A stretch of 33,101 nt of DNA, taken from assembly GCA_015487095.1 (NCBI GenBank), contig WFQM01000254.1, positions 1 through 33,101 on the forward strand. The letters are read 5' to 3'. Below the pieces are notes generated by a model. The model made no database searches and was not told where the DNA came from. It saw only the letters and a program-made list of their open reading frames with translations. The stretch is from Gammaproteobacteria bacterium. GTDB taxonomy: Bacteria > Pseudomonadota > Gammaproteobacteria > SZUA-152. Made by a program: the position numbers and the translations under genes. Below are positions 13,990-23,092 of this stretch, piece after piece; the first letter of the stretch is position 1, and each line of letters begins with the position of its first letter.

Positions 13990-16900
13990 TCAACCTTTAT
14001 ATTCAGAGAAGGCAAAGTGAGTAATCTGTATCCCACTCTCTCTGCGTTCTATCTGGATCCACAGCGGTCCTTGATAATGGTCACGTTTATTTTGACCGTT
14101 AGCCTGTACTTCAACATTATAAATACCCTCACCTCGGGCAATATCGCCATCCCATGTCCATCGCACGTCTTTAAAGGCTATCGTTCGGAACGAAGTACCA
14201 TTAAACAGTCCTACATAATCTTCCCGAATACCCTTTACCGTAGCCCGATCATTGGTTTGGGCATCTTTTGCAAAAAGTTTCATGAAAGCTTCAATATCGC
14301 CCGCCGCATAGGCGCCAATAAGCGTGTTCAATAATGCATCCAGTTCTTTTTCTGAAATATGACTAACGGGATTCGCGCCTGCGCTTGCTTTGCCTGCATC
14401 AATTACAGATTGCGTTTCCACACGTTCAGTCACCACAACATTGGACGTGTAATAACGAATGATTTGTAACTCACCAGAATGACTTTCCACCTGTAGCGTC
14501 ACGTCCCCGCTTTCTTCATAGGCAGGTTGCCCATCCCTGCCCTGCACCGAAACCATGTATTGCCCACCGCCACGCACATAACCGGTTTTCTGCTCCCAAC
14601 TCATATTTCTAAATTGCATGCTGCGCCCGGTGCTATTTTGGAATAACGTTTGATATTCACCCCGCACACCGGCTATATCAATCGATTTATTGGTGCGCAC
14701 TTCAGGCGAATACAACGCCAATAGTGTGTTCAAATCGCCTGCCTGATAAGCTGTAGTCAATACCGTGAGCATTTTATCCAGGCTCGCAGAACTGATCAGG
14801 CCGACTGATGCCGCAGCCCGTGCAGCTGCTTGTGCTTGTACCTTTGCCTCTTCCGCTGCTTTTGCCTCCGCTGCCGCTTTTGCCCTGGCTCTGGCCTGTT
14901 CCTCTGCCCGTGCTTTGATTTCAGCCTCACGCTGGCGCTTGGCTATTGCTGCTGCTCTTAGTTTCGCTTGTGCGTCTGCCTCTGCTTTTGCTTGAGCCTC
15001 TGCTTGTGCGTCTGCCTCTGCTTTTGCTTGAGCCTCTGCTTTTGCCTGAGCCTCTGCTTTTGCCTGAGCCTCTGCTTTTGCCTGAGCCTCTGCTTTTGCC
15101 TGAGCCTCTGCTTGTGCTGCCACTTTGGCAGCCTCTTCAGCAGCACTTGATAACAAAGCTGCCTGAGCTGCCTGCACCATTTCTAATGTCGCTACGGCTT
15201 CGCTGTTGACCTCATCAACCGGTGGCTCCACCACTACAGGGGCAACAGCTGGTTTCGTTGCCGGTTGTGCTACAACCACTGATGCACTCGGCAAGTCAGC
15301 AACCACTTCCGGTTCAACATCTCCCGTCATTTTGATTTGAGTCAACCATAAAACAAATACAATGACCGCAACACCAGCGATCAACATCATGTTGCGAACA
15401 GTTGGTGCTGTGCGTGTACCCTCAGCAATCATTTCACTCGTATTCGCAGGCGAAGGCGAAGGCGGAGGCGGAGGACGCAGCCCCGAATTAACCGCACGGC
15501 CCATATTGGGTGACAAATCCAAATCCAACGCCTCTTCGACATCCTCGACATCGTTTAGAGGTTTCGCAACTTCTTCTGGGCGTGCCGTTATTTCAGAGCG
15601 ACACAAAGACTCATAGGCTGCGCCCACTCGTGATACACCACTTTCATCGTTAAGCTTTTTATCCTGGCGTAACAACTTCATCAATAGACCGTAGTGCGCT
15701 TCCACCTCAGTCAGGCTTGCATCCGATGCCAGACCTAATACACGAAAATCATCTCCACCTGGTAAAAACAACACACGACGCACAAAAAAGCGTACAGCTG
15801 CTCGCAGCATGGCGGGCGAAATACCCATTACGGCAATTTGACGTAATCCTGATAACACATGATCTTCGGCAATTGCCAATTCCAAAATAGCCTTAATGCC
15901 TTTAGGTAGAGGCTGACCGGGATCATCCAATCCTGGGAAGCTCCGCGGTGAACGATGAAAAGCTAACACCAAACGCAAAATTTTGCGCAACACCACTTCC
16001 TGAGGATCTCCCGGCGCATCTGGCAGCGGTGCCATTACACGCGGCGAAGGTTGATTGGCGGGGCGTTCTGTTGTTGCTTCGGGCGTGCTTACAGCAGTCT
16101 CTCTGCCGCCAGCAATGACTCGAAAGCGCTCCATTTCCGCAGGCGCGTTGTTATTGCTGTCATCAATTTCAATATCATCCGGTTGTGCCTGCGCCACATG
16201 CTGCATCCATCCATCATCGGGTACTACCCGATCCATCATGCCACCATCTTCTGGAAAGGAAACAGCCACAGCAGCATGGCTTTCGTCGATATCCACAGTT
16301 GCAGGTTCAGACGGCGGGCTAACATCCGGTTTATCTATGTTCACTTCTTCAACTTCGCTGACCTGTGCGGGAGCGGAGTCGGCAGCAGCTATTTTGGATA
16401 CACTGTTGTTTATTGATTGAGGTGTGCCCGCTGTCTCGACAGACACGATATCAGGTAACACATCTGTGTTTATTTTTGCGGGCCGGGCAATCGGCCTGCC
16501 GGAAATCTCACTTTGCAATTCATCAGTAACTTCATGCAGTACATCCGCGTTAATCGTGTGCAACTCTTCGAGGCTGCTAAACAGCAAAACCCGGTCACAC
16601 AACATATTGATACGTCGCGGCACGCCCTCAGTATATCGGTAGATAATCTCAAACGCTTCATCAGTAAAATGAGGATCATCATTCCAGCCCACATGTGCCA
16701 AACGACTTTCCACGTAGTTCTGACATTCATCTTCACCCAGCGCACTGAGGTGATAATTAGCAATCACGCGTTGGCGGAGTTGTTCCAGGTCCGGGTGATC
16801 CAGCATTTGACGAAATTGCACCTGACCGAGCAGAAAGGTCTGTAACAACGCCTGCTCGCCCACTTGCAGGTTAGAAAGCATGCGTAATTCTTCAAGCGAG

Positions 16901-17313
16901 CGAGCGGGCAGATTCTGAGCCTCATCCACTACCAGCAATACCCGCTTACGCTCACGGGAACGGGCCATGAAAAAAGCTTCCAGGGTTTTCAGCAAACCAG
17001 CCTTATCCTGGCCTTCATAGCGCAGCCCAAAAGAAGCCAGCACCATACGCAGCATTTCATCAGCTTCCAACTGGGTCGTGGTCAAATGAGCAACCACCAC
17101 GTCAGACTGATCCATATCCTGCAAAAGAATTTGTGCCAGGGTCGTTTTACCCGTACCCGGCGCACCGGTGATCACCACAAACCCTTCGGCCTGACTCAGC
17201 CCGTAACGCAAATAAGCCAGAGCACGTTTGTGGCCACGACTGGCGAAAAAAAAGCTCGGGTCAGGACTAAGACGGAAGGGTTTGGCTCGCAGCTGATAAA
17301 AATTCTCGTACAC
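13990..17313 (-). CDS. ExeA/exosortase-associated-type AAA ATPase fused to a periplasmic stalk and two NTF2-like domains
   Basis: 1107 residues. Residues 1-270 are an ExeA/GspA-type ATPase resembling the exosortase-associated family (opening MYENFYQLRAKPFRLSPDP; Walker A GAPGTGKTT at 50-58; Walker B LLVVDEAQ at 126-133; G-V-P-R-R-I-N at 230-236). An acidic linker follows. Residues about 522-571 look like a J-domain whose HPD is RQD. One membrane helix lies at about 641-660, then an Ala/Glu/Lys/Gln stalk (about 730-835) like TolA domain II. Two NTF2/SnoaL-like domains follow (about 843-960 and 990-1107), each opening L-x-x-x-L-x-x-L-x-x-A-Y-x-A-G-D. The start is GTG with AAGGGA upstream. No exosortase is visible. 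It probably heads the export genes and spans the inner membrane. Confidence 0.85.
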   Translation of the reverse strand: MYENFYQLRAKPFRLSPDPSFFFASRGHKRALAYLRYGLSQAEGFVVITGAPGTGKTTLAQILLQDMDQSDVVVAHLTTTQLEADEMLRMVLASFGLRYEGQDKAGLLKTLEAFFMARSRERKRVLLVVDEAQNLPARSLEELRMLSNLQVGEQALLQTFLLGQVQFRQMLDHPDLEQLRQRVIANYHLSALGEDECQNYVESRLAHVGWNDDPHFTDEAFEIIYRYTEGVPRRINMLCDRVLLFSSLEELHTINADVLHEVTDELQSEISGRPIARPAKINTDVLPDIVSVETAGTPQSINNSVSKIAAADSAPAQVSEVEEVNIDKPDVSPPSEPATVDIDESHAAVAVSFPEDGGMMDRVVPDDGWMQHVAQAQPDDIEIDDSNNNAPAEMERFRVIAGGRETAVSTPEATTERPANQPSPRVMAPLPDAPGDPQEVVLRKILRLVLAFHRSPRSFPGLDDPGQPLPKGIKAILELAIAEDHVLSGLRQIAVMGISPAMLRAAVRFFVRRVLFLPGGDDFRVLGLASDASLTEVEAHYGLLMKLLRQDKKLNDESGVSRVGAAYESLCRSEITARPEEVAKPLNDVEDVEEALDLDLSPNMGRAVNSGLRPPPPPSPSPANTSEMIAEGTRTAPTVRNMMLIAGVAVIVFVLWLTQIKMTGDVEPEVVADLPSASVVVAQPATKPAVAPVVVEPPVDEVNSEAVATLEMVQAAQAALLSSAAEEAAKVAAQAEAQAKAEAQAKAEAQAKAEAQAKAEAQAKAEADAQAEAQAKAEADAQAKLRAAAIAKRQREAEIKARAEEQARARAKAAAEAKAAEEAKVQAQAAARAAASVGLISSASLDKMLTVLTTAYQAGDLNTLLALYSPEVRTNKSIDIAGVRGEYQTLFQNSTGRSMQFRNMSWEQKTGYVRGGGQYMVSVQGRDGQPAYEESGDVTLQVESHSGELQIIRYYTSNVVVTERVETQSVIDAGKASAGANPVSHISEKELDALLNTLIGAYAAGDIEAFMKLFAKDAQTNDRATVKGIREDYVGLFNGTSFRTIAFKDVRWTWDGDIARGEGIYNVEVQANGQNKRDHYQGPLWIQIERRESGIQITHFAFSEYKG
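14966..15120. repeat. 18-bp tandem repeats coding the Ala-rich stalk
   Basis: Units near GCCTCTGCTTTTGCCTGA (plus strand) recur about eight times, some with TGTGCG variants. They encode AQAKAE-type hexapeptides. The central copies are almost identical, so the number may vary by slippage without breaking the frame. Confidence 0.9.
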
Positions 17314-19272: not shown

Positions 19273-20025
19273 TTGAATAATTGCTCAATGTATTTGGTAG
19301 AAACACACAAACAATCAGGCATCCAGCACCACAATGGTGGCAAGCCTGAAGTTATGTTTATGGTCTCAAATAAACCAGGGCTTATTCTCGATTTGGGTGA
19401 ATACAGCGATAAAGCGATTGAAGTGCTGGAGCATAATGTAACGCGTAACCCCCTATACTTACGCAGCCATGTTCAAAGAATCTACCTTTACAGAAAAATT
19501 AAAAATGGTGATGCTTTGTATGGTGCCCTATTGGATCTGTTTATAGCGCTCAACACTAAAGGTTTTGAAATAAGGCAACGCTTATTGTTTGAATCCAAAT
19601 GTTACTTGGATTCTCATCATTTCAATGTGCTATATCAGCGATTAGGTAATGGCATAAATGCATCAACTGTATTGCCGTTAAGCTACTATTCACGGCTCTC
19701 GAAAGGATTGATCGGCACAATCGACTTACTCATCAGCAATCATTCGACTACATATGAGGCGCGTGACCCTCAAATAGAAGCGCATGAATATTTGGAATAT
19801 GGGGAAGTGGATGAAGCAAGGAAAGTTTTAGAGATCGCGGTGTTAAAAGAGCCTTGGCGTAAAGAGTTACACATAGACTTACTTGAGATATATAAAGCAT
19901 CTCGCGATGCAGACAACTGTGATGCAATGTATCGCCGGCTGGCTGATAAATTTATTCCTGACCATCACGCGTGGATACAAACGGCAAAACACATTCATCT
20001 GGCCACAGGAGATATAGATGGATAA
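19273..20025 (+). CDS. FimV-like TPR protein, first gene of the GTPase operon
   Basis: 250 residues, soluble, no signal peptide. An N-terminal TPR-like pair (DLGEYSDKAIEVLEHNVTRN) is followed near residue 165 by a segment closely resembling the TPR of FimV: D-P-Q-I-E-A-H-E-Y-L-E-Y-G-E-V-D-E-A-R-K, then V-L-K-E-P-W-R-K-E-L and L-L-E-I-Y-K-A. FimV proteins organise cell poles and type IV pilus signalling, so a polarity or pilus adaptor role is plausible but inferred. The start is uncertain: TTG at 19273 has AGG ten bases upstream; ATG at 19288 has none. The last eight bases overlap the next gene, indicating translational coupling. Confidence 0.7.
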   Translation: MNNCSMYLVETHKQSGIQHHNGGKPEVMFMVSNKPGLILDLGEYSDKAIEVLEHNVTRNPLYLRSHVQRIYLYRKIKNGDALYGALLDLFIALNTKGFEIRQRLLFESKCYLDSHHFNVLYQRLGNGINASTVLPLSYYSRLSKGLIGTIDLLISNHSTTYEARDPQIEAHEYLEYGEVDEARKVLEIAVLKEPWRKELHIDLLEIYKASRDADNCDAMYRRLADKFIPDHHAWIQTAKHIHLATGDIDG

Positions 20026-21250
20026 TCATACAAGGCCTGTAAAAATTGCGGCATTAGGCATGGAACAACGCACCTACAGTACGCTGCAATTATTTTTTCA
20101 TGAACATTGCAAGGATAGCTACGTTCTGGTGGAAGAAAATTCTGCTGACATCAGCATAATAGATATGGATGGATTTCAGGCACACAGAATGCTGGAAGAA
20201 CATAAAAAACATTACCCCAATCAACCTTCAATCCTGATTTCCCTCTCCCATGACAAAGCGTATGATGCGGTATATATTCGCAAGCCGATTATGCTAGAAG
20301 CTCTTTCCTCAGCCCTGCTCAAAGCAAAAGAACGATTACAGCAACCTGTTGCGAAAGTACCCGCCCCAGAAGTGCCTACTGTGGGAATAGCGCCACAGTT
20401 ACAAATAGTTGCCAGCAATCCAGAAACAGTCACCCCGCTGTTACTGAATAACGTTGTTCATAACCCACATAAAATCGCAAGGCAGGAAAAACCAGCTTCC
20501 AAACATTTTAATCAATACCGATATTCAGCAAATTTTCTAACTGAAGACGCCGACCTGGAGCACATCAATACCAAACTGGCCGAGAACTTCAACCCCGACA
20601 ATCCTATACAAATAGCCAAGTTTCAATACCAGCCTGAGCAAACGCTACAGGGATATTTTCAGCAAGCGTATTTCACTGCACTACAAAAACAACAAAACGT
20701 ACTCTTAAAAGGGGTTTGGCGTCCAATAACCATACTTCACGAATCAAAACAATTAAGAGTTGAAAAAAACTTCCGCCATTTATATGCACTGTCTGGAATG
20801 CTTTTTGATAAATCCAACGTTTCGATCACCGTTCTGGATAATAACGTGGACTGTGAACCCGGCCTGCATGAAACAGTTTTACCGGCAGAGCCTTTTCTGT
20901 GGAAGTTAGCCATGCGCACATCACGCGGGCGTGTGCCAGCAAACACAAATTTCACCGCGCCCATCAAACTAATACGCTGGCCTAATTTTACACGGACAAT
21001 CATCACGCCCCATGCACTTAGAATTGCCGCGTTATGGGCAAGACAACCAACATCCCTGATGGATACAGCGAGTTATTTAGCGGTTCCATTACAACATGTA
21101 TTTATGTTTTATACCGCAGCCGTTTCACTGAATTTTGTAGCGCCGGTAATAACTGAAGAAAATCATTCAACCACTGCGCTACCGCCAGTCAAACGTCACC
21201 GATACCGGAAAATTTTTCAAAATTTACTTGAACGACTACGTAATAATTAA
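20018..21250 (+). CDS. Degenerate receiver-domain protein with C-terminal winged-helix-like region
   Basis: 410 residues. Residues about 7-108 follow the receiver fold: V-K-I-A-A-L-G, then D-I-S-I-I-D49-M-D51-G, S-I-L-I-S-L-S and a K89-P90 pair. The acidic pair after strand 1 is missing (G-M-E-Q-R instead of D-D), so metal-dependent phosphorylation is doubtful. A disordered linker runs to about 165. The C-terminal region ends in a helical stretch (HALRIAALWARQPTSLMDTA, then L-Q-H-V) that reads like a winged helix, comparable in position to DUF742 proteins of Streptomyces conservons. It overlaps the TPR gene by eight bases. Probably an adaptor or effector in the GTPase circuit; no family name given. 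Confidence 0.65.
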   Translation: MDNHTRPVKIAALGMEQRTYSTLQLFFHEHCKDSYVLVEENSADISIIDMDGFQAHRMLEEHKKHYPNQPSILISLSHDKAYDAVYIRKPIMLEALSSALLKAKERLQQPVAKVPAPEVPTVGIAPQLQIVASNPETVTPLLLNNVVHNPHKIARQEKPASKHFNQYRYSANFLTEDADLEHINTKLAENFNPDNPIQIAKFQYQPEQTLQGYFQQAYFTALQKQQNVLLKGVWRPITILHESKQLRVEKNFRHLYALSGMLFDKSNVSITVLDNNVDCEPGLHETVLPAEPFLWKLAMRTSRGRVPANTNFTAPIKLIRWPNFTRTIITPHALRIAALWARQPTSLMDTASYLAVPLQHVFMFYTAAVSLNFVAPVITEENHSTTALPPVKRHRYRKIFQNLLERLRNN

Positions 21251-22501: not shown

Positions 22502-23092
22502 ATGATAGACAAAAAAGGAAATATTATTAAACCCGACTTTATTGAGCTTACACGTTATGCCAAACAATTTTCAGGTTTAACAATTGAGAAAGAGAATGTA
22601 TTATTAAGCGTGAAGGATGAGGTTGCTCCATTACTTGGCACCGTAACCGATAATTTTTACGATGCAATGAATGACATACCTGAGGCAGCATCTTACCTGG
22701 AGGGACGCATAACGGGACTGAAACAAACCCACTTAAACTGGATGAACAGCGTCTTCACCGGCCCTTACAATGAAGAATACACAGAGTCAATGTACGATGT
22801 TGGCGACATTCATGTTCGAGTTAATCTACCCGTGGAATTTATGAGCGGTGGTGTTACTCTTATATGCAACGAACTTTATAAAATAATTTTCGAGCTATAT
22901 GGCGAGGATTCTGTAAAAACACACAACATCATTAGCGCCATAAACTCTGCACTGGGATTTTCACTATTTGTAATGCAAAAATCCTATAATGCCTCTGTTG
23001 ATGAAGCCTTGAATAAATTTTTATTGATAACGGGCATGAGTGAAGCCTTGTTTGCAAAATTATCTTCCTCATTCAATGCAACTAAACCCTAA
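22502..23092 (+). CDS. Stand-alone protoglobin/globin-sensor domain
   Basis: 196 residues with no output domain. The region F-S-G-L-T, then L-L-G-T-V-T-D-N-F-Y, then D-V-G-D-I-H104-V-R-V-N-L-P-V-E-F-M is the protoglobin signature; His104 is the proximal haem ligand and Tyr53 a candidate distal residue. In globin-coupled sensors this domain reads oxygen, NO or CO and feeds a fused kinase, cyclase or chemotaxis domain. Here nothing is fused and the neighbours are a GTPase and two roadblock proteins, so signalling would have to pass by protein contact. It lies 39 bases after the previous gene and 42 before the next, in the same operon. Confidence 0.88.
   Translation: MIDKKGNIIKPDFIELTRYAKQFSGLTIEKENVLLSVKDEVAPLLGTVTDNFYDAMNDIPEAASYLEGRITGLKQTHLNWMNSVFTGPYNEEYTESMYDVGDIHVRVNLPVEFMSGGVTLICNELYKIIFELYGEDSVKTHNIISAINSALGFSLFVMQKSYNASVDEALNKFLLITGMSEALFAKLSSSFNATKP

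Follow-up and report, generated by a model that had tools for sequence, protein, structure and literature searches.

The single-domain sensor-family globin encoded at 22502–23092 may serve a Group 3 MglA/roadblock system as its stand-alone haem sensor, a reading to which we assign a probability of about 0.55 on the basis of its ligand residues, predicted fold and gene neighbourhood. In such a system haem would be bound through His104 and His77, a conserved C-terminal extension would dock on roadblock protein, and the effect would fall on a small GTPase and/or on a protein with REC-like and winged-helix (wHTH) parts. An oxygen or gas signal would probably reach the switch in this way, with sensor and switch kept as separate proteins. 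Positions are those of the window, by which we mean the whole stretch of 33,101 nucleotides that was analysed, and the features are collected in Table 1.

Table 1. Operon genes and globin features, in window coordinates
Feature	Position	Strand	Evidence
TPR-containing protein, 250 aa, first operon gene	19273..20025	+	TPR_14 E 1e-4, just below cut-off
REC-like and winged-HTH-like protein, 410 aa, conserved "unknown" of Group 3 MglA systems	20018..21250	+	position, size, receiver-like residues
MglA-family small Ras-like GTPase, Group 3, 181 aa	21283..21828	+	ATP_bind_1 E 3e-10, Ras E 7e-7
N-terminal winged-helix-like part and C-terminal roadblock domain, 213 aa	21821..22462	+	AlphaFold pLDDT 90.4; Foldseek
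Single-domain sensor-family globin	22502..23092	+	196 aa; Pfam PF11563 E 2e-20; PDB and fold matches
Tyr53 codon, B10 position by alignment	22658..22660	+	kept in 46 of 47 aligned globins
His77 codon, counterpart of the distal HisE11 (His66) in GsGCS	22730..22732	+	alignment with 2w31
His104 codon, proximal HisF8	22811..22813	+	invariant; aligned with His93 of GsGCS
C-terminal extension (residues 163-193) with FLLITGMSEALFAKL motif, possible docking element	22988..23080	+	model helices, column entropy
Roadblock/LC7 (MglB-like) protein, 120 aa	23135..23497	+	Robl_LC7 E 4e-15

The globin and its predicted haem pocket

The preliminary description, made from the sequence alone, had read the ATG-initiated frame at 22502–23092 as a protoglobin. 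A search with the Pfam Protoglobin model PF11563 upheld this, matching residues 18–152 with 73.7 bits (gathering cut-off 25 bits; E = 2.1e-20), and the AlphaFold model built from 12 sequences was found to have a globin fold (pLDDT 90.8, pTM 0.83). NCBIfam gave no match for the globin, and a protein search of the plasmid collection returned no match. Solved sensor globins that matched by sequence were AfGcHK (5ohe, E = 2e-13) and GsGCS, the GCS globin of Geobacter sulfurreducens (2w31, E = 1e-12), and when solved structures were ranked by the family profile, GsGCS came first (3e-25), followed by AfGcHK and the single-domain cyanobacterial Tlr1989. Foldseek placed AfGcHK (5ohf) and GsGCS (2w31) at the top for the globin model; MaPgb ranked below AfGcHK, GsGCS, Tlr1989, BpeGReg and HemAT, so the protein is not an archaeal-type protoglobin, which would stand closest to MaPgb.

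The product comprises the globin domain and a 30-residue extension only, and is not a two-domain globin-coupled sensor (GCS); nor is it a fusion of the HGbRL type, the globin and roadblock domains being encoded in separate frames. It belongs to the sensor single-domain globins, that is, S-globins without an output domain, which are a recognised and named class (PMC4648194), so the earlier description erred in treating the absence of an output domain as an anomaly. The globin domains of GsGCS and AfGcHK are the closest in sequence and fold, and HisE11 and HisF8 are common to GsGCS and the window globin, but each forms part of a longer chain, with a histidine kinase fused to it in AfGcHK, and identity is about 26%. 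Tlr1989 shares the lack of an output domain, a similar length and a similar C-terminal TG..LF..L motif, but has Phe at the E11 column where the window globin has His. A globin fused to a GGDEF-like domain is also encoded in the same genome (G000:C76:9055-9507, L069).

Within the motif GDIHVRVNLP, His104 was conserved in 12 of 12 relatives, and its alignment with HisF8 of GsGCS agrees with the original view that the proximal ligand is intact. Haem binding, which had been called likely, is well supported by this homology, and we infer it on that ground. A second histidine, His77, had been overlooked. It aligns with His66 of 2w31, the residue numbers being counted on sequence and profile alignments, and HisE11 of GsGCS is described as part of a bis-histidyl pair in a title cited in PMC4476040. 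The His77 column holds His in 18 of 20 globins that belong to the single-domain clade or are linked to roadblock genes, versus 1 of 25 fused globins.

Contrary to the earlier view, the chain goes on beyond the globin fold. Residues 163–193 add a prolongation of the H helix, which spans 137–177 in the model, and an additional helix at 181–193, and they are conserved like the haem-pocket helices: mean column entropy is 1.03–1.06 bits over residues 163–190 of the extension and 0.95–1.05 in helices E and F, against 1.24–1.44 in the other helices. Profile alignment shows that Tlr1989 carries the extension as well. We considered the TGMS..LF tail as a remnant of a GGDEF domain and dropped the idea, a GGDEF match being absent at E up to 1.

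A Group 3 MglA operon

The globin gene is the fifth of six closely spaced genes on the plus strand, in the order TPR (19273), REC-like/wHTH (20018), GTPase (21283), 21821, globin (22502) and roadblock (23135). Judged by motifs and gene content, this operon belongs to the "Group 3 MglA" systems, which a survey described in 2014. As set out there (Wuichet and Sogaard-Andersen 2014, PMC4316618), a Group 3 system is made up of MglA, one or two MglB and an unknown protein with REC-like and wHTH parts; such systems are found in beta- and gammaproteobacteria, with Neisseria, Stenotrophomonas and Xanthomonas named. The window operon resembles them in its putative REC-like/wHTH protein, in an MglA with a non-canonical G4 and a DAR G5, and in two MglB homologues. 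The 21283 GTPase carries GPVGAGKTT as its G1 motif and GTPGQ as G3, where Asp is missing; its G4 reads TQMD and lacks Lys, and its G5 is DAR, features that agree with those described for Group 3. A Pfam search returned nothing for the 20018 product. It is probably the Group 3 partner of PMC4316618, which it fits in position and size, and across 12 sequences D51 and K89-P90 are invariant, in the manner of receiver domains. The TPR gene keeps its position in nearly all sister operons.

One of the two MglB homologues, 23135, is clear by Pfam, and the other, 21821, is predicted by structure: it scored E = 0.23 against the roadblock Pfam model, under the cut-off, and the top Foldseek matches of its model were MglB, Ragulator and archaeal roadblock proteins. 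NCBIfam gave no useful match for either roadblock protein. The operon differs from Group 3 as described in that it has a globin, whereas the Group 3 description in the survey leaves globin, PAS, CZB and FIST accessory genes unmentioned; the word "globin" is absent from PMC4316618. It is also not a conservon (AGPS), a CvnA-type histidine kinase being absent among the six genes.

The same genome holds a second Group 3-like GTPase with a REC-like gene (G000:C320:11523-12044; L065 8506-10256), in that case without a 21821-type roadblock gene. On the minus strand of the window, 13990–17313 encodes a 1107-aa protein that combines an ExeA-like AAA domain with a long Ala/Lys/Glu-rich repeat and, at its C-terminal end, SnoaL-like domains.

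Recurrence beside roadblock genes

Related single-domain globins were found to adjoin roadblock genes in eight families, two classes and several gene orders. The six-gene order including the globin is kept at five further loci of the genus and in families f157 and f84, and f101 has it without the GTPase; the operon position of the globin is the same in f1, f101, f157 and f84. In f37 the globin follows the second roadblock gene, and the order is REC–roadblock–globin–TPR–roadblock in f10 and MglA–roadblock–globin in f13. The alphaproteobacterial family f200, whose roadblock–globin cases all come from one genus, has roadblock–globin and even roadblock–globin–roadblock–globin–roadblock, with an MglA GTPase near by. 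The recurrent link of single-domain S-globins to roadblock genes is, on these neighbourhoods, new, and our literature search found no paper with both "protoglobin" and "roadblock".

Alphaproteobacterial clusters at L160–L163 combine several roadblock-like genes with ODP, globin, MglA GTPase and a calcineurin-like phosphoesterase, and G413 has tandem roadblock–globin pairs whose roadblock copies look identical. In G179, genes for pilB, pilC and a pilD-like protein lie directly downstream of a roadblock–globin pair (L061 10741-14654); a link to type IV pili was set aside, as pilBCD stands 3' of the globin in this genome only and at no other operon locus examined.

At class level, a close orthologue of the globin (E below 1e-40) was present in 8 of 369 genomes, all 8 being among the 40 with a 21821-type gene (hypergeometric p = 1e-8, relatedness ignored), and at order level 6 of 6 globin genomes were among the 7 of 24 with such a gene (p = 5e-5, relatedness ignored). 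As exceptions to the adjacency, G305 and G306 carry close orthologues outside the operon, and G488 has a globin relative without a roadblock gene within 5 kb.

A census with PF11563 across 299 genomes of the phylum yielded about 100 places. Twelve were short frames, one of which, cut at a contig end, continues into GGDEF-like sequence, leaving 11 complete single-domain genes. A roadblock gene lay within about 5 kb of 7 of these 11 versus none of 20 fused globin genes (Fisher p = 1e-4, inflated by relatedness), five of the seven coming from one alphaproteobacterial genus and one being the window gene. The census depends in part on the searches that raised the idea, and the PF11563 family model is independent of them. 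In the tree, a group of 18 rows (support 80/82) unites the single-domain globins linked to roadblock genes with four that are not. The tree does not show that every roadblock-linked globin goes back to one origin: it calls for at least 5 changes, and the long branches of G163 and G656, two divergent linked globins, fall outside the main clade.

This record bears on two other readings. The association could be chance, or hitch-hiking in a mobile or ancestral cluster, with no functional link; most sister operons lack the globin and the p values are uncorrected for phylogeny. Against this stand the several gene orders in eight families and two classes, the strict co-occurrence with roadblock genes and the purifying selection on the globin (dN/dS about 0.10–0.12 within the genus), and we think such an accident very unlikely. 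The globin might also be a gas-handling enzyme, that is, an NO dioxygenase or an O2/NO scavenger or store, co-transcribed by chance. Protoglobins bind O2, CO and NO in vitro (PMC3680402), and two close orthologues sit outside the operon. We nevertheless consider this role quite improbable, since the operon has no reductase partner, the closest solved structures are sensor domains, HisE11 is held in common with a sensor globin, and the gene recurs independently beside roadblock genes.

Operons without a GTPase gene

The preliminary description had set the globin between two roadblock genes, as is indeed found, and had proposed that its output is a protein contact that changes GTPase state. The first half of that proposal, contact with an operon partner, gains from the recurrent adjacency to roadblock genes and from the 8 of 8 co-occurrence. 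The second half is weakened, at least as a general rule, by operons that lack the GTPase. Family f101 has a contiguous TPR–REC–roadblock–globin–roadblock operon with no GTPase gene, and in G318 only 28 bp separate the end of the REC-like gene from the roadblock gene. Genome searches of G318 and of G101 (99% complete) found no homologue of the GTPase at E 1e-3, and the GTPase was found in 6 of the 8 class-level genomes with a close globin orthologue. Judged by gene content, the constant partners of the globin are the roadblock pair and the REC-like protein, not the GTPase, which suggests that the roadblock pair or the REC/wHTH protein is the more general target.

It is conceivable that the REC/wHTH transcription factor is what the globin acts on, either by itself or by way of the roadblock pair, with the GTPase outside its path. 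The GTPase-less f101 operon and the two genomes without a homologue speak for this, as does the presence of a REC-like protein in nearly every operon. We judge it unlikely all the same, because a GTPase gene lies in or near the globin cluster in f1, f157, f84, f37, f13 and the alphaproteobacterial clusters. Moreover, G389 retains a GTPase homologue, which sits on a different contig with no roadblock gene near it in the stretch examined, and a different GTPase could act in trans.

Other candidate inputs around the roadblock core

Among 33 gammaproteobacterial operons with both roadblock genes, 13 have a gene for a stand-alone PAS protein of about 160 aa that begins 6–112 bp after the second roadblock gene, and a tested member came out closest to the aerotaxis receptor Aer (E = 3.5e-36). 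Neither globin nor PAS is present in 13 of the 33, so the globin is optional. The two occur together in 1 of 33 operons; we do not claim mutual exclusion, which was non-significant (p = 0.11). Aer-type PAS genes were seen at L137 8038-7565, L058 after 7817, L053 10115-10612 and ten more loci, sometimes followed by a gene for a phosphonate-binding-like protein. Stand-alone CZB or FIST proteins take the PAS position at L139 10404-10763 and, after the second roadblock gene, in L092 and L103. This pattern of PAS, CZB and FIST accessories around a Group 3 roadblock core was found in the present analysis; "PAS" as a whole word has zero occurrences in the 2014 Group 3 survey (PMC4316618).

In the alphaproteobacterial clusters, the gene before the roadblock gene encodes ODP (match E = 1.6e-71). 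ODP is a diiron protein of the beta-lactamase fold, from a family known to bind O2. Its presence and that of Aer-type PAS proteins as neighbours give two independent hints at an O2 or redox signal. The globin thus looks like one of several exchangeable inputs. We hypothesize, at slightly less than even odds, that small-GTPase/roadblock switches of bacteria offer a modular input slot, which a separate, non-covalent sensor occupies; this may be a globin, an Aer-type PAS, CZB or FIST protein, or ODP together with a globin. In the window system, O2 or NO would then alter the roadblock state by way of a diffusible haem globin, making a haem-gated G-protein pathway with neither a kinase nor a fused output.

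Precedents and a proposed mechanism

Two known systems count as precedents. In actinobacterial conservons, the stand-alone CvnF (GAF) works at the input side of an MglA/roadblock system, where it binds to the kinase and stimulates it; another accessory, CvnE, is a P450 (PMC13343842). As in the window operon, a stand-alone sensor-like accessory is encoded with an MglA-type GTPase and a roadblock protein, but it acts on the histidine kinase CvnA, whereas the window operon lacks CvnA and its accessory is a globin. The second is HGbRL, a globin–roadblock/LC7 fusion proposed to relay ligand binding and reported only in Methylacidiphilum (PMC4476040). It too couples a globin to a roadblock/LC7 domain, but covalently and with a flavohaemoglobin-type (M) globin, whereas the window globin is of the sensor family and separate. 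We rejected NmpRSTU of Myxococcus as a precedent, since there the globin is part of a kinase fusion and MglA is unmentioned.

The analysis bears out the anatomy of the protein and its genomic association. For a stand-alone haem sensor, we infer the following course from ligand to contact and on to GTPase or transcription. Haem would sit between His104 (F8) and, in the ligand-free or ferric state, probably His77 (E11). A gas, most likely O2 and possibly NO or CO, or a redox change would displace His77, and this displacement may shift the H helix and the C-terminal extension. The shifted extension could dock on one or both roadblock proteins (21821, 23135), and the roadblock pair so altered would change the nucleotide state of an MglA-type GTPase, if there is one, and/or act on the REC/wHTH protein, the likely transcriptional output.

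The presence of a globin, an Aer-type PAS protein and ODP around the same roadblock core provides a testable hypothesis of O2 or redox input for Group 3 MglA systems. If true, it would assign a partner to the poorly understood single-domain sensor globins, and gas sensing would be wired to a Ras-like switch via a separate protein.
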